NCBI GenBank assembly: GCA_026225595.1
Contig: JAMFTB010000067.1
Span: 1 to 36,827 of the forward strand
Reading direction: 5' to 3'
DNA from: Terriglobus sp.
GTDB lineage: Bacteria; Acidobacteriota; Terriglobia; Terriglobales; Acidobacteriaceae
Length of the DNA stretch: 36,827 nt
The notes under the pieces were generated by a model that did not search any database, was not told the DNA's origin, and saw only the letters and a program-made list of their open reading frames with translations. Positions 23,791 to 32,888 of the stretch are shown in pieces. Each line of letters opens with the position of its first letter. Within the stretch, counting starts at the first letter, position 1. A program made the position numbers and the translations under genes.

Positions 23791-25899
23791 ATGGGCCGTA
23801 TCCGCGTACTCTCCGACCAGGTGGCGAACCAGATTGCCGCTGGCGAGGTGGTGGAGCGGCCTGCGTCCGTTGTGAAGGAGCTGCTTGAGAATGCAGTCGA
23901 CGCGGGCGCAACCCGCATCCGCATTGAGGTTGAGGGCGGCGGCCGCAAACTCATTCGCATGGTCGACAACGGCTGCGGCATGGTGCGCGACGACGCTATG
24001 CTGGCCTTTGAACGGCACGCCACCAGCAAGCTGCGCACGGCAGACGATCTGCTGCACATTGCAACGCTCGGCTTTCGCGGAGAGGCTCTGCCATCCATCG
24101 CATCGGTTGCTCGAGTAGAGCTCGACACGCGCGCGGAAGAAGATGCGGTGGGCACCCGCATTGAAATCGTCGGCGGCAAGATGACGCGTGTGGAAGATGT
24201 TGGCGCGCCCGTGGGCACAACGATTGCGATCAAGGATCTGTTCTTCAACGTGCCCGCGCGCAAGAAGTTCCTCAAGAGCGAGCCGACAGAACTTTCGCAC
24301 GTTGCGGCTCTTGTTACGCATTACGCGCTGGCGCATCCGACGAAGCATTTTGAACTGCACACCGCAACGCATGCGCTGCTGGTTGCGCCCGCCGTGCGCG
24401 ATGCGAGCGAGCGGCTGTTTCAGATTCTGGGTAGCGACATCTCGCGCGACATGTTGCCCGTTGCCGCAGAGGTGGACTTTACCCGCGCGGGTCTGCCGGA
24501 GCCTCCGCCATGGCGGCGCGAAGAGGATTACGTCGCGCCGGAGCCGGGCTTTCTGCGTGTGCGCGGCTTCGTCTCAAAGCCAGAGCTGCAGAAGCTCAAC
24601 CGCGGATCGATCTACGTCTTTGTGAACAGCCGGCAGGTGCGCGACCGGCTCATTCTGCATGCGTTGACTGAGGCCTACAAAAACATCCTGCCGCCAACAT
24701 CGTTCCCAGTCGTGTTGTTGTTCCTCGAGATGCCAGCCTCTGAGGTGGATGTGAATGTGCATCCGGCAAAGACGGAGGTTCGCTTCCGGCAATCGAGCTT
24801 TGTGCATGACTTTGTGCGCGACACGGTGCGCACGGCGGTGCTGAATGCGCGGCCCGCGGCCAGCTTTCTGCATGCAGTTGCGCCGTCTCCGCGGCCCGGC
24901 ATGCTGGATGGTGGTGAGGGCATTGAGCTGGATCCGGTCCTGCGTGGGCCGGGGCCGGGCAGTGATGCTCCGTGGAGTGAGCACCAGGTGCGCGAGGCTG
25001 CGGAGCAGGATGCGCTGAAGGCGTGGGGGCCGGTGGATGCGAGTGACGTTGGTTCGTTCTCGCTGAGGGAACGCGCTGTGCCTGAAGTGCAAGTGCCGGG
25101 TAAATTCGTGTTTCCGGTTGAGAGCATTGGTGAAGGAGAAGAACAGCAGGTCCCTCCACTTCGCTCCGCTTCGGTCGGGATGACAAATCTTGAGGGAGGA
25201 GCAAGCGTACCGGCAACCGGCGGTCTCGGCGATCCGCATGCTTCTACACATCTGCCTGCGGGCACGGCGCAGCGCGCGCCTGCAGCGGAGCGCATTGAAG
25301 ACACAGCAAACCTTGCCGGACTTGGCGGTCTGAGGCCGCTGGGGCAGGTGCAGAACTCATTCATCCTTGCGGTGAATGAAGAGGGCCTGTGGATCATTGA
25401 CCAGCATGTGGCGCACGAGCGCATCCTGTTTGAGAAGGTGTTGCGTGAGCGGCAGGTGGAGCGTGTGCAGCGCCAACGGCTGCTGATGCCTCTGCTGATC
25501 GACCTGATGCCAGCGCAGATGGCCAACTTTGCCCACATGGCAGAGGAGTTGGACCGCAACGGCTTTGAGGCGGAGCCGTTTGGTCCGCGCACACTGGCGG
25601 TCAAAGCGGCTCCGGTGGGGCTTGAGGGCAGGGAACTGGAGCTGGCGCTGGCCGAACTGCTGCAGATCGAAGACGACGCCGCCCAGGCCGACAACATGGA
25701 CGCGCGGCAGCGGCGGATTGCCGCCAGCATTGCCTGCCACGCCGCGGTCAAGATCAATATGCCCCTGGAACACAGCAAAATGCAGTGGTTACTGGACGAA
25801 TTGGGAAAAACCGAAAATCCCATGGCATGTCCGCATGGCAGACCCATTGCTTTGCGGTATTCTCATAAGGAGATTCAGCGCGCCTTCCAGCGCATTTAG
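23791..25899 (+). CDS. mutL: DNA mismatch repair protein MutL
   Basis: The 702-residue protein has the full GHKL ATPase N-terminus: [12 protein letters not shown] (catalytic Glu), V-D-N-G-C-G-M, A-T-S-K-L and G-F-R-G-E-A-L. A P-A-R-K-K-F-L motif follows. The linker, about residues 350-520, is poorly conserved. The C-terminal endonuclease domain has [12 protein letters not shown] near residues 535-546 (the usual Ala after DQH is Val), A-C-H-A-A-V-K, and C-P-H-G-R-P-I near the end. These indicate a nicking-competent MutL of the non-E. coli type. The linker contains a family B intergenic repeat read in frame (25148-25187, about residues 454-466). It may be made from a leaderless transcript starting at TAGAAT 23779-23784. 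Confidence 0.97.
25148..25187 (+). repeat. Family B repeat copy inside the mutL coding region
   Basis: The segment reads AGGTCCCTCCACTTCGCTCC and continues to a GGGATGACA end. It is a variant of intergenic copies at 22337, 22454 and 29231. It is read in frame as [11 protein letters not shown] within the variable MutL linker, with no frameshift or stop. Confidence 0.65.
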
Positions 25900-25943
25900 T
25901 TTTCTGCGCGGCTTTTTTACGCGAATGGTTGCAGGACTGAATC

Positions 25944-26050
25944 TTCTACGAACCATGCGGTTCCTCTAGAACGAAGCGGACGACAGGCTTCGTAAAGCCG
26001 GGGTAGTTTCCCGCAGGCCGGATGCGTGGCTTCCTCCTTCACAGGGAAGC
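25944..26050 (+). other. Structured leader candidate between mutL and the 932-residue gene
   Basis: Three adjacent hairpins are visible: GAACC/GGTTC with outer TCTA/TAGA at 25944-25969, ACGAAGC/GCTTCGT at 25971-25993, and GCTTCCT/GGGAAGC at 26029-26050. They lie in a 343-base gene-free region (25900-26242). The remainder to 26242 shows no gene and ends with AAGGA 7 bases before the next ATG. This may be a structured 5' UTR, and no known riboswitch was recognised. Confidence 0.35.
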
Positions 26051-26242
26051 TGGGTCCGAAAAGAGAGTCAACGGGCGTTTGCCGCTTCGGATAAGCACCG
26101 AAGAGCACCGCCGCAGGCGCTCCCACCTACATCCAACACAAGAACGCAGGCAGCAGCGCGGGTCGTCTCCGCGCAGAACTGGCCTTGCGCACACAGGCGC
26201 GCCCGCCGCATACAGGGGCGCCGCAAAAAGAAGGAACACCGC

Positions 26243-29041
26243 ATGGCTACGAGCCCTGAGAGCATCACCCCCAATCAATTGAAACTTGCGCGCGTTGCGC
26301 TTTGGCACCAGAACGGTTCCGCGCTGCGCACCATGGACGACGCCCGCGAATGGCTGGACGCCGCCGGCCTTGTGCCCTACTACCCGCATCCGCAGTTTGC
26401 AGCAGCGCCCCAGCCCAGCTTTGCTGAGGCAGTGCTCGGCCGGCCGGAGAACGGCTGGGTTCCGCAGGCCGCTGCGGTAGAAGACGAAGAGCCTGAGGAA
26501 GGCGAAGAGTCTGACGACGAAGAGTTCGATGAGGACTTTGACGACGATGAGTCCGAAGAAGACGAAGAGTCGGAAGACGAGGACGAAGAGTCCGACGACG
26601 ACGAAGAAGAAGAGACCGAAGACGAAGATCCCGCCGCATCGGACGACGAGATCATGCTGACCACGGACGACGAAGCTGCGGAAGATGAGGGCGATGAGAT
26701 TGCCGAGCAGGACCGCATCCACGCAGGCGGCGACCCCACCCCGAATGATGTAGCTGCTGCTGAAGAAGCCGTAGAGCCGGAGCCTGAAGTCGAACCGATC
26801 AACGGCTTTACCGCAGAAGAAAAAGAAACCGTAAGCCGCACGCTTGCACGCCTGATTGCAGAAGGTTCCGCAGTGCCGCTCAGCCTGCTGGGCACCTCCA
26901 CCGGCGAGCCGGACTTCATCTGCTCCGCAAGCGCGTTTTCGTTTGTGTTCACGCTGCGTGGCGATAAGAACTTCAAGAACGAGCCTGCACAGACGGGTTC
27001 TCTGCGCGTGTCGCCGCTGGCGGTCAAGGTGCATGAGCTGCTGAAGGAAAAGGGCGGCATGACCGCGAATGAGCTGTCGCGCGAGGCGGGCCAGGGCGTG
27101 GTGGATTCTGCCATACTGCGCTCGCTGTGCGAGCTGTGGGCGATTCAGCGCGTCATCCCTGTGCCTGACGCCGAAGGCGCACCCGCAAAGTGGGAGCTGC
27201 TCACCGGCCGCTTTGTTCGCCATCTGAAGGCGGGCGCCAACGCGGGCCAGCCCACGGCGCTGTCTGCTCTGCTGTCGCTCTACCTGTCAAAGGCCATGGC
27301 GGCCAGCAGCGACGAGATGGAGACCTTCCTGTCGCCGCTGGCGGCGCGTTCGCGCGTTCGCGAGGTGGTGAGCGGTCTGCAGGCCACGCGTCAGCTTGAT
27401 TCTGTTGTTGTGGAAGGCAAGACGCTGCTGTACCTGCCCGGCGCTCTGGACAATCTGCCGGAAGAGAGCGCTGTTGCCTCGGTCGCAACCATGCAGCCGC
27501 GCTCGCGCTATGAGGATGATGATCGCCGCCACATGATTGAGGAGCGTGCGGCTCGCTTTGCCGAGCAGGGCGGAGAGCCCGAGCGCCGGGGCAACTTCCC
27601 CGTGCGCCGTCCTGCTGCCGCAGGCGATCGCCCGGCACGCACCGGCGGTTTTGTACCTCGCCAGGGTGGTTCTTCTGGTCCTCGTCGTGAAGGCGGATTC
27701 GCTCCGCGTCGCGAGGGTGGCTTCGCGCCGCAGCGTCGTTCCACCGGCTTTGGTGGACCGCGTCGTGAGGGTGGATTTGCCCCACGCGAAGGTGGCTTTG
27801 CCGGTGGTCGTGACGACCGCGAGCGCCGTCCCTTCCAGCGTCGTGATGACGCTGCAGCACCAGCCGCTCGCACAGGCAATGAGTTTGCACGTCCGTGGGA
27901 TGACGAGCAGCGCCCCGCGCAGCCGTCCGGCGAAGGCCGTCCCGCTGCGGGCGGCTTCTCCTCGCGTGATACCGGCGAGCGCCGCCCCTTCACTCCGCGT
28001 GAGGGTGGTGAGCGTCGTCCGTTCACACCGCGTGGAGATCGCCCGTCGTTTGGCGATCGCAAACCGTTTACTCCTCGCGAAGGCGGCGCCCGTTCGTTTG
28101 CGCCTCGCGGAGATCGTCCCTTCACCCCGCGTGGTGATCGTCCCTTCACTCCTCGTGAGGGTGGCGAGCGCCGTCCCTTTACTCCTCGTGAAGGTAGCCG
28201 TCCGTCGTTTGGCGATCGCAAGCCGTTTACACCGCGCGAAGGCGGAGATCGTCGTCCCTTCACTCCCCGTGGCGACCGCCCCTTCGGCGACCGTCCGTTC
28301 ACACCGCGCGGTGATCGTCCCTTCACTCCCCGCGAGGGTGGTGAGCGCCGTCCGTTCACGCCTCGTGCTGGCGGCGACCGTCCCTTCACACCTCGTGGCG
28401 ATCGTCCCTTCACACCTCGTGAAGGTGGCCGTCCGTCGTTTGGTGATCGCAAGCCGTTCACTCCGCGCGAAGGTGGCGACCGTCCGTTCACCCCGCGTGG
28501 AGATCGCCCGTTTACGCCGCGTGCTGGCGGTGATCGTCCGTTCACCCCGCGTGGTGATCGTCCCTTTACACCTCGTGAAGGAGGCCGTCCGTCGTTTGGC
28601 GATCGCAAGCCGTTTACTCCTCGGGAAGGTGGCGACCGCAAGTCGTTCGCTCCCCGTGGCGACCGTCCGTTTACTCCTCGTGGCGATCGTCCATTTACCC
28701 CGCGCGAAGGCGGCGGTGATCGCCGCCCATTCACACCGCGTGAGGGTGGTGAGCGTCGTCCGTTTACACCTCGTGAAGGTGGTCGTCCTTCGTTTGGTGA
28801 CCGCAAGCCGTTTGCACCGCGTGGCGATCGTCCGTTCACCCCGCGTGAGGGTGGCGAACGCCGTCCGTTTACACCTCGGGAGGGTGGTAGCCGTCCGTCG
28901 TTTGGCGATCGCAAGCCGTTTGCCCCGCGTAGCGGTGGTGGTGGACGTTCCTTCGCTCCGCGTGATGGCGCACCGCGCGGTGGTGGACGCGGACCGGGCT
29001 CCGGCCCAAGCCGTCCCTTCACTCCGCGTCGTTCGGAATAA
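26243..29041 (+). CDS. Acidic/winged-helix-like protein with F-T/A-P-R tandem-repeat basic tail
   Basis: No known family was recognised for this 932-residue protein. ATG 26243 follows AAGGA by 7 bases. Residues 1-78 form a small domain (QLKLARVALWHQNG to PENGWVP). Residues 80-129 are nearly all Asp and Glu. Residues 190-400 look folded. Residues 255-325 resemble a winged helix (VKVHELLKEKGG, TANELSREAGQ, CELWAIQRVIPV). Residues of about 420-932 are Arg/Gly/Pro-rich and disordered. From 579 they form a tandem array with about 31 F-T-P-R or F-A-P-R motifs, interspersed with G-D-R-P and E-G-G-E-R-R spacers and six R-P-S-F-G-D-R-K-P-F units. Such tails bind RNA or drive condensation in other proteins; that is inference here. 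Acidic and basic halves could self-associate. It is followed by a terminator hairpin at 29060 and lies upstream of cmk and a cold-shock gene. Confidence 0.85.
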   Translation: MATSPESITPNQLKLARVALWHQNGSALRTMDDAREWLDAAGLVPYYPHPQFAAAPQPSFAEAVLGRPENGWVPQAAAVEDEEPEEGEESDDEEFDEDFDDDESEEDEESEDEDEESDDDEEEETEDEDPAASDDEIMLTTDDEAAEDEGDEIAEQDRIHAGGDPTPNDVAAAEEAVEPEPEVEPINGFTAEEKETVSRTLARLIAEGSAVPLSLLGTSTGEPDFICSASAFSFVFTLRGDKNFKNEPAQTGSLRVSPLAVKVHELLKEKGGMTANELSREAGQGVVDSAILRSLCELWAIQRVIPVPDAEGAPAKWELLTGRFVRHLKAGANAGQPTALSALLSLYLSKAMAASSDEMETFLSPLAARSRVREVVSGLQATRQLDSVVVEGKTLLYLPGALDNLPEESAVASVATMQPRSRYEDDDRRHMIEERAARFAEQGGEPERRGNFPVRRPAAAGDRPARTGGFVPRQGGSSGPRREGGFAPRREGGFAPQRRSTGFGGPRREGGFAPREGGFAGGRDDRERRPFQRRDDAAAPAARTGNEFARPWDDEQRPAQPSGEGRPAAGGFSSRDTGERRPFTPREGGERRPFTPRGDRPSFGDRKPFTPREGGARSFAPRGDRPFTPRGDRPFTPREGGERRPFTPREGSRPSFGDRKPFTPREGGDRRPFTPRGDRPFGDRPFTPRGDRPFTPREGGERRPFTPRAGGDRPFTPRGDRPFTPREGGRPSFGDRKPFTPREGGDRPFTPRGDRPFTPRAGGDRPFTPRGDRPFTPREGGRPSFGDRKPFTPREGGDRKSFAPRGDRPFTPRGDRPFTPREGGGDRRPFTPREGGERRPFTPREGGRPSFGDRKPFAPRGDRPFTPREGGERRPFTPREGGSRPSFGDRKPFAPRSGGGGRSFAPRDGAPRGGGRGPGSGPSRPFTPRRSE
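27977..29035 (+). repeat. In-frame tandem coding repeats of about 24-33 bases (F-T-P-R array)
   Basis: Units encode RPFTPRGD (24 bases) or RPFTPREGGER (33 bases), with a longer RPSFGDRKPFTPREGG unit recurring six times. Copies differ mainly at third codon positions, for example in the TTT/TTC and CGT/CGC codons. This fits protein-level selection plus old duplications, though recombination-driven length variation between strains is likely. It is not a CRISPR array, because repeats stay in frame and there are no unique spacers. Confidence 0.9.
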
Positions 29042-29059
29042 CAAATCCATAAGCAAAAC

Positions 29060-29106
29060 AAGCGGCGTGCCTGGCAGAGAGATCTGCTGTGCACGCCGCT
29101 TCTTCG
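29060..29106 (+). terminator. Rho-independent-like terminator after the F-T-P-R gene
   Basis: AAGCGGCGTGC (29060-29070) pairs perfectly with GCACGCCGCTT (29091-29101). A nested CAGA/TCTG stem lies inside, and CTTCTTCGT trails the structure. It lies 19 bases after the TAA. Confidence 0.7.
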
Positions 29107-29118
29107 TACACGAATGCA

Positions 29119-29382
29119 TGTCCTGCCGGGACGGGCCTCCTGCGCGTGGGGCGGGTGCTCACGCACCTTTTTACTGCTTTGCGTGGCCTTCCCGTTGGTC
29201 AGGATTTGAAATTCATGCTGGCGCCAGTGAAATGCAGGTCCTTCGACTTCGCTGCGCTCCGCTCAGGATGACAAGATGTGTGGTGAGCGTTTGATCCCGA
29301 CCATCGGGAGGGGCGAGGCGAAGCCAGTAACAAGGCGTGTAAACGCCCGCCTCCGCGCGCAGCGGGCCCGTCCGGCAGGACA
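29119..29382. repeat. Composite of family A inverted pair enclosing a family B copy
   Basis: A reverse family A copy (29119-29201) and a forward copy (29296-29382) flank a forward family B element (29231-29274, AATGCAGGTCC to GATGACAAG). The cluster fills most of the 433-base gap between the F-T-P-R gene and cmk. Confidence 0.8.
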
Positions 29383-29460
29383 GGTTCTTTGAAGCAGCAG
29401 GAAAAAAGAAGTTGCAGAGAGAAGTAGTGCCGGGCGGCCCCAATACGCCCCGCGCTCGGG

Positions 29461-29466
29461 CACAAT
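29461..29466 (+). promoter_or_regulatory. Candidate -10 box close to the cmk start
   Basis: CACAAT (four or five of six consensus bases) ends 8 bases before the ATG at 29475. A very short leader is again implied, and no ribosome binding site is evident. The -35 position is unclear. Confidence 0.25.
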
Positions 29467-29474
29467 AAAGAACG

Positions 29475-30185
29475 ATGAATGAGAACGGAAACGGCACGCG
29501 TTACGGGCTGGTAGTTGCGATTGATGGTCCCGCCGGCGCTGGCAAAAGCACCGTTGCGCAGCACCTGGCGCGGCGGTTTGGTCTGCTGAACCTGGAGACG
29601 GGGGCCATGTATCGCGCGCTGGCGCTGAAGGCACTGCAGCGTGGCACAACTGTTGACGATGCGGAGGAAGTGCTGGCGCTGACCGGCCACACACGCATCG
29701 TGCTGGAGCCGTCCGATGCGGGTAACCGCGTTCTGCTTGACGGCGAGGATGTGACCGCGGAGCTGCGTGCACCGCAGGTGACGACGGCCGCATCGTTCGT
29801 CTCAGTCCATGGCCCGGTGCGTGAGTGGATGGTGCGTGCGCAGCGTTCGCTTGGCCTGGCTTCGCCCGCGGGCGTGGTGATGGAAGGCCGCGACATCGGC
29901 ACGGTCGTCTTTCCGGATGCGCCGGTAAAGATTTTTCTGGACGCAAGTGTTGAGGCGCGCGGTGATCGCCGCTTTGCCCAGCAGCCCACCGCGGCGGAGT
30001 CGCGCGATGCTCTGCTGCACCAGATGCGCGACCGCGATACACGCGACCGTGAACGCGTGCAAAGTCCGCTGCGTCCCGCCGCAGATGCCGTGCTGCTGGA
30101 CACCACAACGTTGTCGCTGGAGCAGGTGCTGCAGCGCACGGAGCAGCTGGTGCAGGCGCACCTGGACTCGCGCTCAAGCAACTAG
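29475..30185 (+). CDS. cmk: Cytidylate kinase
   Basis: The 236-residue cytoplasmic enzyme phosphorylates CMP and dCMP with ATP in pyrimidine nucleotide synthesis. The P-loop G-P-A-G-A-G-K-S-T lies at residues 18-26. It is followed by L-E-T-G-A-M-Y-R-A, the (d)CMP-binding segment E-G-R-D-I-G-T-V-V-F-P-D-A, and the lid R-D-x-R-D motif (RDRDTRDRERVQSPL). Length is typical of the family (about 225 residues). It is separated from the cold-shock gene by 254 bases and is likely its own unit. Confidence 0.96.
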   Translation: MNENGNGTRYGLVVAIDGPAGAGKSTVAQHLARRFGLLNLETGAMYRALALKALQRGTTVDDAEEVLALTGHTRIVLEPSDAGNRVLLDGEDVTAELRAPQVTTAASFVSVHGPVREWMVRAQRSLGLASPAGVVMEGRDIGTVVFPDAPVKIFLDASVEARGDRRFAQQPTAAESRDALLHQMRDRDTRDRERVQSPLRPAADAVLLDTTTLSLEQVLQRTEQLVQAHLDSRSSN

Positions 30186-30310
30186 TTTCTGTTTCCGCCA
30201 CATGGATAGTTTGCCTAACCATCCCTGTAACCCTGCGGCACGCGCGCCTTTTGGATGGTGTGGAGCGCCGGGGCTGCAGCCTATCGTGCTGCTGCAAAGC
30301 AGTTTGATTT

Positions 30311-30341
30311 TTCACAGACCGCCTGGAATTCGTGCTACGCT
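30311..30341 (+). promoter_or_regulatory. Candidate promoter for the cold-shock gene
   Basis: TTCACA (30311-30316, five of six of TTGACA) is followed, after a 19-base spacer, by TACGCT (30336-30341). It would leave a leader of about 95 bases before ATG 30440, in line with the long leaders usual for csp mRNAs. The spacer is long, so this is tentative. Confidence 0.3.
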
Positions 30342-30439
30342 ATGCCCATCGTTTGAGACAAAACTGTGATTCGACCGCCCAAAAGCGGCCGCACACTTGT
30401 ATTCAAACGGCAGATTCGAACAGAAGAGGGCCGTGCTTT

Positions 30440-30640
30440 ATGGAACAGGGGACAGTGAAGTGGTTCAACGACGCAAAGGGTTTTGGATTCGTCAGCCGCG
30501 AGAACGGCGAGGATGTCTTCGTGCATTACTCGGCCATCAACACCACGGGCTTTAAGAGCCTGCAGGAAGGCCAGGCCGTGCAGTTCAACGTGATCAAAGG
30601 ACCCAAGGGCTGGCAGGCATCAGACGTTCAGCCGCTGTAG
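30440..30640 (+). CDS. Cold-shock domain protein (CspA family)
   Basis: The 66-residue protein is a single OB-fold cold-shock domain. It has the RNA-binding motifs K-G-F-G-F-V (RNP1, residues 13-18) and V-F-V-H-Y (RNP2, about residues 26-30). It begins [10 protein letters not shown], as in CspA proteins. Start is ATG 30440, after GAGGG; the upstream in-frame region lacks protein character. It binds single-stranded RNA or DNA as an RNA chaperone. A strong terminator follows at 30754-30797. Confidence 0.96.
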
Positions 30641-30753
30641 TCGTTTCGTTTTGCAAGTAAGATCTGGTTCCCATCTGCAGCCGTGAATGCGCGTTGTTCA
30701 TCCGACGCGTGTGCCTAAGCAGGCGTGGTCCCTGAAACATTGCGGCCCTCAAA

Positions 30754-30797
30754 AAGTAAAAGCGGGCAGCCCCTATTAGGGCTGCCCGCTTTTACTT
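30754..30797. terminator. Strong bidirectional terminator (csp and ferritin-like genes)
   Basis: A perfect 19-bp stem (30754-30772 with 30779-30797) closes a 6-base loop, with flanking A and T tracts. On the minus strand it is followed by TTTTTGAGG and on the plus strand by TTTTACTTGTG within the stem. It separates the convergent ends of the cold-shock gene and the ferritin-like operon. Confidence 0.95.
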
Positions 30798-30812
30798 GTG
30801 TCGATACGTTCG

Positions 30813-31838
30813 TTAGCTGACGTTGCCGTTCAGACCATTGGGGTAGAAGCCGCCCTTTGTGGGCGATCCCGTGGTGGCATACACAATGTTCAGCACCTGG
30901 CGGAACGACCGTGCGAAGGCAATGTAGTTGCTGTCCGCATCCACAATGGTCGATGCGGTGATGTTTGCCGTCGCCGTGTTCAGTGCCACCTGTTTGGTTG
31001 TCAAGCCCACATCGTCTGAGCCGCTGGTGCCGCCGGTGCCGTCAAACATGGCGCGTGCGCCGGCAATCTGCGTTGCATAGGCTGCAGCTCCCGCGCGCGT
31101 TTCGCCCGGAATGGTGATAAAGCCCTGGTCGTATCCGTAGATGGTCGAACGGATCAGGCCTGCGTGGTACGCCTCCACTGCCTGAATCTCCGCAGCGGGA
31201 GCAAGGTAGCTTGCCGTGTTGGTGATGGCCGCTGCAGCTCCGTGGTATGCGGTAACGCCCACATCCTCAAAGATGAACGCGCCCAGCAGGAAGTTCAGAT
31301 CGTTGGCGAACGGGTCAAAGTTGCTGATTGCCGGGCTCAAAAGGCTGCCAAGTGCGGCAAAGCTGGTGACCAGGTCCAGCGTGGGCTGCGCAACCGCGCC
31401 GGTGGAAAGTGCGTTGCGCAGAAAGTTCACGTGGCGACGCTCTTCCAGCGCCGTTTCAAACGCATACGCTGCGATGAACGGGCTGGTAAACGGTACCGGC
31501 GCAATTGCGTTTGCAGAGTTGCCCGATGTGTTTGCCTTGGTAAGCACAGTGGTGGATGTGCTGGCACCCGTGACCGTGCCAGCGCCAACAGCAATCGCGC
31601 TGCCCTTGGTGGACTTGTCCGCGTATACGCCCTCGGTGGCCAGCGTGTAGAACTGCGCCTCCAGGTACTCCAGGTTCAGGGCAAAGTTGAGGATGTCGAT
31701 GTCCGTGGGTGCAGCAGGGATCGCTGCGCTGGCCACGCCGGGTGCGAGTGCCAGAGCGGCAAGCGCTCCGCCACCCATCAGCAGTGCCCGGCGGCTGGCA
31801 ATAATTCCGTCTAGTTTTTGTGTTTCGAGTGATGCCAT
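30813..31838 (-). CDS. Tat-exported ferritin-like protein (four-helix di-iron type)
   Basis: The 341-residue protein starts at ATG 31838, seven bases after GGAG. A twin-arginine signal (S-R-R-A-L-L-M, residues 15-21) precedes a hydrophobic stretch and A-S-A cleavage site near residue 38. The ferritin-like bundle has an apparently complete di-iron ligand set: Glu57 or Glu60 in helix 1 (L-N-L-E-Y-L-E), Glu133 and His136 in helix 2 (E-x-x-H), Glu191 in helix 3, and Glu222 and His225 in helix 4 (E-A-Y-H). It resembles the ferritin-like domain family PF13668 and plant desiccation-related proteins. Tat export implies folding before secretion, consistent with a metal-loaded protein. The upstream paralogue ends 21 bases before it, so they form an operon. 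Confidence 0.88.
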   Translation of the reverse strand: MASLETQKLDGIIASRRALLMGGGALAALALAPGVASAAIPAAPTDIDILNFALNLEYLEAQFYTLATEGVYADKSTKGSAIAVGAGTVTGASTSTTVLTKANTSGNSANAIAPVPFTSPFIAAYAFETALEERRHVNFLRNALSTGAVAQPTLDLVTSFAALGSLLSPAISNFDPFANDLNFLLGAFIFEDVGVTAYHGAAAAITNTASYLAPAAEIQAVEAYHAGLIRSTIYGYDQGFITIPGETRAGAAAYATQIAGARAMFDGTGGTSGSDDVGLTTKQVALNTATANITASTIVDADSNYIAFARSFRQVLNIVYATTGSPTKGGFYPNGLNGNVS

Positions 31839-31859: not shown

Positions 31860-32834
31860 TTAGGCGGTGGGGGTTTTGATGGTGCCGTTCATGCCTGCGG
31901 GGAAGAATCCACCGCTGGCCGTGAGGGTGCCGGGTTGGGTTGCATACACAATGTGCAGCACCTGGCTGGTGGAGCGCGCAAAGCCGAGTGCGTTCGTCGT
32001 ATCGCACGCCACGATGGTGGAGGGCGTTACGTTCGACACCGGACCATTGGTTGTCGTTGCTGCGGTGGCGGAACCCGCAGACAACTGCGTTTCGAAAGTC
32101 GAAGTGCCTGAGCCGCCCAGCATGCCGCGCAGCGTGACCACCTTGTTGAAGTTGGTCAGCAGCATGTTGGTGGAGTTGCCGGTGTAAGCAATCAGGTTGC
32201 GGATGGCGCCTGCGTGGTACGCCTCAGTGGCCTGAATGCCGGCTGCTGCGGTCAACACGGCCTTGCTGGTCAGCAGACCGGCAGCGCCCGTGTATGCGGT
32301 TACGCCCACGTCTTCAAAGATCGCTGCGCCGATGAGGAAGCTGTTCTGATCTGCAAACGGATTGAAGCTGCTGCCAATGCCCGCTGCGGATGCCAGGGAG
32401 TTGAATGCGTTGGTGAAGTCAATTGCAGGAGCACCGACCGCAGTGCCCGCCAGCGATCCAATGGTGCTGCGAATCGCGCGAACGTGCGCAAGCTCCGCCG
32501 CTGCCAGCTCGTTAGCAAGCTGCTGCAGATACATGCTGGTGAAGGTCACCTTCGATCCGCCGGTCACAGTGCCTGCGCCGTCTGCAGTGCCCAGGCCGGT
32601 GCCGGTTGCTGCGCGCAGGTAGAACTCCGCCTCAAGGTATTCCAGGTTCAACGCGAAGTTGAGGATGTCGGAATCCGTGATGGTGACTGTGGGTTGCGTT
32701 ACCGGCGGGGTGGTGGTGGTTGCAGGTGACGACGAGCCGCAGCCCGTAAGCGTGGCCACGCCAGCAACGCCGGCGGTTGCAATAAAGCCGCGACGCGTGA
32801 AGTGAGGGCTAAGAATGTTTCGATTTAGTTCCAC
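31860..32834 (-). CDS. Tat-type ferritin-like lipoprotein (paralogue)
   Basis: The preferred start is GTG 32834, six bases after GGGAG, giving 324 residues; an ATG at 32888 is further upstream. The signal H-F-T-R-R-G-F-I-A followed by a lipobox-like T-L-T-G-C at residues 28-32 indicates a Tat-exported lipoprotein. The mature protein is ferritin-like, with Glu65/Glu68, Glu114 and His117 (E-x-x-H), Glu174, and Glu204 and His207 as probable di-iron ligands. It shares its core and C-terminus (V-L-x-I-V-Y-A-T, F-x-P-x-G-x-N-G) with the neighbour. It is first in the two-gene operon. The lipid-anchored and soluble forms may work together in envelope iron or redox handling; that is inference. Confidence 0.87.
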   Translation of the reverse strand: MELNRNILSPHFTRRGFIATAGVAGVATLTGCGSSSPATTTTPPVTQPTVTITDSDILNFALNLEYLEAEFYLRAATGTGLGTADGAGTVTGGSKVTFTSMYLQQLANELAAAELAHVRAIRSTIGSLAGTAVGAPAIDFTNAFNSLASAAGIGSSFNPFADQNSFLIGAAIFEDVGVTAYTGAAGLLTSKAVLTAAAGIQATEAYHAGAIRNLIAYTGNSTNMLLTNFNKVVTLRGMLGGSGTSTFETQLSAGSATAATTTNGPVSNVTPSTIVACDTTNALGFARSTSQVLHIVYATQPGTLTASGGFFPAGMNGTIKTPTA

Positions 32835-32888
32835 TGGTATCTCCCTTGGGGCGGTGCTCGTGCGTAGTTGGAACGAGCGGGAGAGCAA

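Follow-up and report, generated by a model that had tools for sequence, protein, structure and literature searches.

A stand-alone AlkZ-fold protein with a cationic tail and an acidic insertion, encoded beside mutL in the Acidobacteriaceae

The locus described here raises the question of what a protein assembled from three very unlike parts may do. It lies in a 36,827-nucleotide stretch of Terriglobus sp. (Acidobacteriaceae; GenBank assembly GCA_026225595.1, contig JAMFTB010000067.1, positions 1 to 36,827), which we call the window, where an open reading frame (ORF) on the forward strand encodes 932 amino acids (aa) from its ATG start at 26243 to 29041; the features below lie on this strand unless marked otherwise. 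The N-terminus is similar to the starts of relatives. An initial annotation made from the sequence alone described an acidic block, a folded middle and a repeat tail, and all three parts proved real. It recognized no family; the core can now be placed in the AlkZ-like HTH_42 group by a PF06224 match and a structural match to 9zd6. Our answer, offered tentatively and at a little less than an even chance, is that the protein is a non-catalytic AlkZ/AlkX offshoot that serves as a nucleic-acid-binding scaffold, likely for DNA, in the same process as MutL.

On the evidence of predicted structures, the core is the three-winged-helix fold of AlkZ and AlkX (HTH_42). We modeled the tail-less homologue L058 (297 aa) from A1, an alignment of 18 relatives covering the N-terminus plus core, and obtained a predicted local distance difference test (pLDDT) score of 89.3. 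The first entry among solved structures was the AlkX/YcaQ-DNA structure 9zd6, with a Foldseek E of 3.3e-8 and a VIA Z of 16.5 over 235 residues (root-mean-square deviation, rmsd, 3.5; chain residues 16-287 of 390). Next came AlkZ (5uuj, Z 14.0) and the Lhr C-terminal domain (7lhl, Z 13.9), after which the scores dropped to Z 10.0. The model of the window protein covers residues 1-426, used A2 (those residues plus 51 relatives) as input, and reached a pLDDT of 82 overall and mostly above 90 in the core. Its top match was also 9zd6 (VIA Z 16.6 over 256 residues, rmsd 4.1; Foldseek 1.6e-5), with AlkZ 5uuj at Z 13.8 and the best row outside AlkZ, AlkX and Lhr at Z 11.0; the Lhr domain was matched at Z 13.9-14.5 across the two models. 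Together with Pfam, these matches bear out the winged-helix character that had been suspected for the middle of the protein.

The Pfam evidence depends on which part of the protein is searched. With the core alone, PF06224 (AlkZ-like, HTH_42) gave 31.4 and 33.8 bits against a curated cut-off of 25.9, while a search with the full 932 aa returned no PF06224 row and just two weak ones, both against its acidic region. PF24741 (AlkZ-rel), for which we found no function description in the open-licence literature searched, was matched at E<=1 by 15 of the 18 A1 members (best 2.1e-9). Relatives of 277-332 aa exceed its cut-off in 7 of 21 genomes of the window's family, whereas the window core stays below it; the window genome gave no match, nor did any of 14 control genomes. 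NCBIfam returned no useful match. Ratios of nonsynonymous to synonymous change (dN/dS) of 0.02-0.12 across seven pairs indicate purifying selection on the core.

The fold is interrupted within its first domain. The first half of winged helix 1 (WH1; residues 5-70, 26255-26452) corresponds to an A1 profile match at 26267-26452 (E 1.2e-12), and residues 11-70 have a mean pLDDT of at least 93 in every 10-residue block of the window model. After a gap between two profile matches, formed by an insertion in the WH1 loop (residues 71-190, 26453-26812), the rest of WH1 follows with WH2 and WH3 (residues 191-402, 26813-27448; A1 profile E 6.2e-66).

Catalytic positions of the fold carry other residues in this branch. 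Glycosylase motifs are given in PMC9040887 as Q-phi-D, (Q/H)-phi-Q or H-phi-(S/T)-(D/E), and PMC13303869 reports that the catalytic Q and D of AlkX are required for excision. By hhalign, the catalytic Q-V-D of L157 lies opposite L-M-Y in L058 and P-Y-Y in the window protein (P45-Y46-Y47, 26375-26383, also placed by column tally, with P48 next). We tallied these columns over 75 family rows (set f1: the window, L033-L035 and 71 further loci hand-chosen across the range of frame lengths) and an outgroup of 12 rows from another family in the window's order; such counts are of sequences, not independent events, and include close sets (L053-L056, L033/L050, L125/L126). The first position was never Q or H in the family (L 50, P 12, A 8, F 3, M 1, S 1) and the second never D or Q (0/75), both columns being variable, and the proline right after them was invariant (75/75). 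Among outgroup rows, the first position was never Q, with five gaps, and the second was Q in one row. Tripeptides of the form [QH]-phi-[DQ] were seen at other, scattered places among the first 80 model positions in 32 of the 87 rows; several Terriglobus-type rows have HAQ a few residues past the old motif, and the window protein does not.

The beta-barrel of AlkX is also absent from the window model, whose last strand ends at residue 397 and is followed by two short helices of falling confidence. Because the alignments reach chain residue 379 of 9zd6 and 305 of 5uuj, a few residues after WH3 do fall in the barrel region. Loop F319-Y336 of AlkX, which PMC13303869 describes as required for DNA binding and unhooking, falls beyond the range matched by the L058 model. 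We infer from these residue and domain losses that the branch is no AlkX-type glycosylase. A full-length AlkZ-like gene turned up in just 1 of 21 genomes of the window's family (G024). Other PF06224 rows in these genomes are the AlkZ-fold gene or frames of ~1400-1700 aa that we take to be Lhr; a separate PF06224 frame of 1673 aa in the window genome (G000:C181) is presumably Lhr as well.

Roughly where the AlkX barrel would start, a cationic low-complexity tail begins (residues 403-932, 27449-29038, net +45; R 22%, G 18%, P 17%, F 10%). Its composition suggests that it is disordered; beyond residue 426 it lies outside the window model. The initial annotation had counted about 31 F-T/A-P-R motifs, and the repeat array stands with a corrected count of 33 (26 FTPR and 7 FAPR, in tandem arrays at 27698-29029), compared with a mean of 0.2 and never more than 3 when the last 508 residues were shuffled 1000 times. 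Most spacings (25 of 32) are 8, 11, 10 or 16 residues, or 24, 33, 30 and 48 bases. Pairwise differences per site among the motif codons were 0.576 at third, 0.000 at second and 0.086 at first positions; since the codons vary at third and not at second positions, the repeats appear constrained as protein, although the units were picked by the motif itself, which adds to this contrast. We also observed that third-position G+C is 0.52 in the tail (27515-29038) versus 0.75 in the core, perhaps owing to CGT and CCT codons in the repeats.

Tails of relatives differ in wording and agree in make-up. They are 120-604 aa long, cationic and rich in R, G, P, F and K. A main clade of 44 rows has tails averaging 421 residues and net +47 (sd 12, range 17-75), counting L043, cut by a contig end, and L110, which has unread bases. 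Member tails lie on average 0.14 from the mean tail composition, against 0.40 for the cores of the same proteins, and three tails outside this clade are similarly close (L113 0.09, L116 0.20, L120 0.17). Some tails are barely repetitive, with distinct 5-mer fractions of 0.98 (L099) and 0.93 (L122). Judged from sequence, make-up and charge look selected, and the F-T/A-P-R repeats look like one local way of writing them.

No other protein of the window genome had a similar tail at E<=1. A search with the tail wording matched 10 of 20 genomes, the stronger matches all inside the AlkZ-fold gene itself and weak ones in other frames of G149 (E 0.008) and G024 (E 0.083); this search misses other wordings, having failed on the gene's own long tails in G002, G016, G097 and G080. 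Plasmid matches concern the tail only, as all start at residue 548 or later. PHROGs gave no match at E<=0.01 and a phage collection no core match at E<=1e-5, so no phage origin is suggested. Similar low-complexity stretches do occur on RNA enzymes of other phyla, in keeping with the earlier association of Arg- and aromatic-rich tails with RNA: they form a long C-terminal R/G/F/K repeat tail on a Limnobacter DEAD-box helicase (L036, identified by Pfam, and L037) and sit on S4/pseudouridine synthases (L200, L201) at the C-terminus in Paracoccus ferrooxidans and the N-terminus in Bacteroides finegoldii.

The acidic block is, as far as the sequences tell, an insertion made once, into the WH1 loop, in the window's genus (Terriglobus-type). 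It appears in 13 of 75 family rows, all in one clade and explained by one change on the core tree. The whole insertion measures 120 aa with 52% D/E and net -61, and its residues 81-180 have a pLDDT of about 50-61 in the window model. The block proper (residues 79-134, 26477-26644) has 42 D/E in 56 residues, and its best 50-residue stretch, starting at residue 80, has 41, which agrees with the earlier description of about 50 nearly pure Asp/Glu residues. Across the window's clade the block carries a net charge of -22 to -85. Net charge is +11 to -47 in the 12 members with block and uncut tail, compared with +17 to +69 in 31 main-clade members with a tail and no block. Separately, an unrelated Cryobacterium protein (L038-L040; no Pfam match for L038 at E<=0.001) joins long basic N-terminal DRPAYKG-type repeats to a C-terminus that is strongly acidic, and so combines repeats of one charge with a block of the other independently of this family.

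An A1 profile search of 150 genomes from the window's family found the gene in 143, and in 108 of 109 good ones (>=90% complete, <=5% contaminated). It was present in 38 of 41 genomes of the initial sample, the window's own included, and in 41 of 297 drawn from the phylum, 31 of these belonging to the family and 10, all weak matches, lying beyond it. Of the 75 family rows, 13 have the block; 47 have long tails and 28 short, a split that is no prevalence because the loci were hand-chosen. Tails shorter than 100 aa and no block were found in 28 of 75 family rows and in all 12 outgroup rows, so some homologues have neither block nor repeats, an outcome that the initial annotation had named as refuting its reading.

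These short forms of ~290 aa appear ancestral on the core tree, which was built from 87 rows with the acidic insertion left out. Scoring a long tail as 100 residues or more, parsimony placed three changes, at the base of the 44-row clade (every row of which has a long tail), at L113 and at the pair L116/L120. An approximately unbiased (AU) test did not reject a single long-tail clade (p 0.242), and the long tail therefore arose one to three times. Over their last 15 residues, short C-termini are more basic in the family (28 rows) than in the outgroup (12 rows; p 5e-6, uncorrected for kinship). Since short family C-termini are already basic, it is plausible that a stub of this kind was extended into the tail.

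Neighboring genes suggest the process in which the protein may take part. Upstream in the window is mutL (23791-25899; Pfam DNA_mis_repair and MutL_C) and downstream is cmk, for cytidylate kinase (29475-30185; Pfam 225 bits). In 70 of the 73 family loci whose flank is long enough, mutL precedes the gene in the same orientation, within 500 nt in 67 and farther off in L052 and L140 (~600 nt) and L107 (2 kb). Likewise, cmk follows at no more than 2000 nt in 68 of 72 loci, and at no more than 500 nt in 66; those with no cmk in reach (L044, L046, L047, L138) represent both tail types. L117, L143 and L146, the family loci without an upstream mutL, still have cmk directly downstream. The outgroup has mutL upstream in 7 of 12 rows, all within 500 nt, and cmk in 0 of 10. 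The linkage to mutL suggests DNA repair, and we consider that the two conserved neighbors point to DNA no less than to RNA.

The initial annotation drew a hint of RNA biology from a cold-shock gene downstream and from a structured leader, and neither argument stands. Of 66 family loci with sufficient flank, only 12 have a cold-shock gene in that place, and the leader (25900-26242) folds no better than expected (z -0.38; 40 of 100 shuffles fold as well) and has no Rfam match. Between the 932-aa gene and cmk, a terminator-like hairpin with a T run (29153-29168) is a consensus match only, and such sites number 7 in the region against 5.4 expected. No sigma-70-type promoter was matched within 25700-30800, where the consensus may not suit the host's phylum.

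Taken as a MutL-associated scaffold, the protein probably grips nucleic acid instead of excising bases. Such a protein would be inactive as a glycosylase, and its winged-helix groove would still hold DNA, or a DNA/RNA structure. The tail, presumably disordered, may have taken over the non-specific grip of the lost barrel and loop, together with self-association. In the window's genus, the acidic block could bind the tail in cis and compete with nucleic acid, making binding weaker or conditional; this step is the weak one, because block and tail charges are uncorrelated and the core is slightly acidic. We consider rather improbable the more elaborate idea that a catalytically silent AlkZ-fold protein works with MutL throughout the lineage, reading distorted DNA with its winged helices and gathering repair factors into a DNA-bound condensate with its tail, which the acidic block would gate in Terriglobus-type bacteria. 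Under that idea, an ancestral DNA glycosylase would have become a scaffold by exchanging a folded DNA-clamping barrel for a disordered one.

Several results weigh against a DNA-binding scaffold acting with MutL. Genes can stay adjacent without acting in one process, and no mutL was nearby in 5 of 12 outgroup rows or in any of 10 loci of other classes, so that a MutL link beyond the order, which we looked for, was not seen in these distant loci. The core has a net charge of -3 (window residues 186-410), and of -8 to +4 in 59 listed relatives without the block, where a DNA-gripping groove alone would predict otherwise. Block charge did not correlate with tail charge (r 0.14 over 12 rows, omitting L043 for the contig end in its tail), and exact charge matching between the two is rejected on this ground. 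Only 2 of 18 A1 members matched PF06224 at E<=1, and the profile comparison with AlkZ-like proteins was modest (hhalign E 1.4e-4, probability 52%), using seven of the nine AlkZ-like ORFs of the same phylum that were extracted from 13 loci tried. The A1 profile had no matches among PDB sequences at E<=10, and the fold link therefore rests mainly on models and Pfam. Tails of comparable kind elsewhere sit on RNA enzymes. Faster turnover of the tail than of the core was not borne out, as 5-mer sharing below 60% core identity drops alike in both (tails 0.01-0.02, cores 0.003-0.03). Finally, a missing motif is no proof of inactivity, since the Lhr C-terminal AlkZ-like domain, which lacks QxQ, is described in PMC10953399 as a uracil-DNA glycosylase that uses an aspartate.

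This precedent bears on the possibility that the protein is an active DNA glycosylase that removes crosslinked or alkylated bases through other residues. The fold matches to AlkX and the Lhr domain, the invariant proline beside the old motif and the presence of a full-length AlkZ-like gene in just 1 of 21 family genomes, so that many may lack the usual enzyme, would all fit. However, both catalytic positions are lost and variable in all 75 rows, candidate tripeptides elsewhere are scattered with the nearby HAQ missing from the window protein, and the barrel and DNA-binding loop, the latter essential in AlkX according to PMC13303869, are absent. We think an active enzyme very unlikely. To a slightly greater degree still, we doubt that the protein is a transcription factor whose tandem winged helices bind a promoter while the tail touches RNA polymerase. 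WH2 does resemble MarR, Fur and TFE types (Z about 10-11 over about 62-97 residues), but these regulator matches cover mostly one domain where AlkX covers three, and the analysis gave no hint of a target gene. Bacterial regulators also seldom carry cationic tails several hundred residues long.

An RNA-side role has more in its favor and is nevertheless unlikely in our judgment. The tail would bind ribosomal or messenger RNA and drive a ribonucleoprotein condensate, with the winged helices binding structured RNA or a ribosome-assembly partner. Winged helices are able to bind RNA, as in the SelB-SECIS structure 2uwm (low in the Foldseek list, E 0.05), the window has a cold-shock gene two genes further on, and this explanation stays alive because similar stretches are found on the DEAD-box helicase and the pseudouridine synthases. 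Against it, the nearest folds are, by a clear margin, DNA glycosylases and Lhr, the leader shows no special folding, and mutL and cmk are neighbors nearly everywhere in the family, where the cold-shock gene is not. The tail might instead do nothing for the protein and be an expansion of neutral or selfish repeats, the account to which we give the least credence. Its length differs between near relatives (460, 525 and 554 aa in L044, L046 and L047; 428-466 aa in L053-L056), and its 5-mers diverge about as fast as those of the core. Yet the repeats are under protein-level constraint, charge and make-up are kept over the 44 rows even in barely repetitive tails, and parsimony places extra gains of similar make-up, with a single origin not rejected.

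Compared with known systems, the HTH_42 fold is familiar, and what is new is a stand-alone, family-wide branch that often has a tail and in one genus an acidic insertion. AlkX/YcaQ, of the YQL subgroup of HTH_42, shares PF06224 and three tandem winged helices over ~235-256 residues, whereas the 932-aa protein lacks Q-phi-D, the barrel and the DNA-binding loop and has the cationic tail, the acidic insertion and the mutL linkage. AlkZ, of the AZL subgroup, has the same three-winged-helix core (Z 13.8-14.0), and the branch differs from it in having neither QxQ/HxQ nor a barrel. The Lhr C-terminal domain likewise has AlkZ-like winged helices without QxQ, but Lhr is a helicase fusion, while this protein stands alone, with no helicase domain found in its 932 aa. 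The RNA enzymes with R/G/F-rich stretches share make-up and F-G-D-R-K-P-like words; their catalytic domains are unrelated, and the likeness is one of low-complexity sequence only. We found no paper on this branch in the open-licence literature searched. Elsewhere in the window, two adjacent similar genes on the reverse strand (30813-31838 and 31860-32888) appear ferritin-like by eye, with an export-type N-terminus.

Crosslink-repair glycosylases and the C-terminal domain of Lhr are the known bearers of the HTH_42 fold, and here a stand-alone branch of it occurs in nearly every good genome sampled of one soil family and keeps its place beside mutL. The family offers a natural series for part-swapping, from the core only, through a short basic stub and a long tail, to a tail with an acidic block. 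A functional link to MutL, if there is one, would make the protein a new accessory factor of the mismatch-repair neighborhood of these bacteria.

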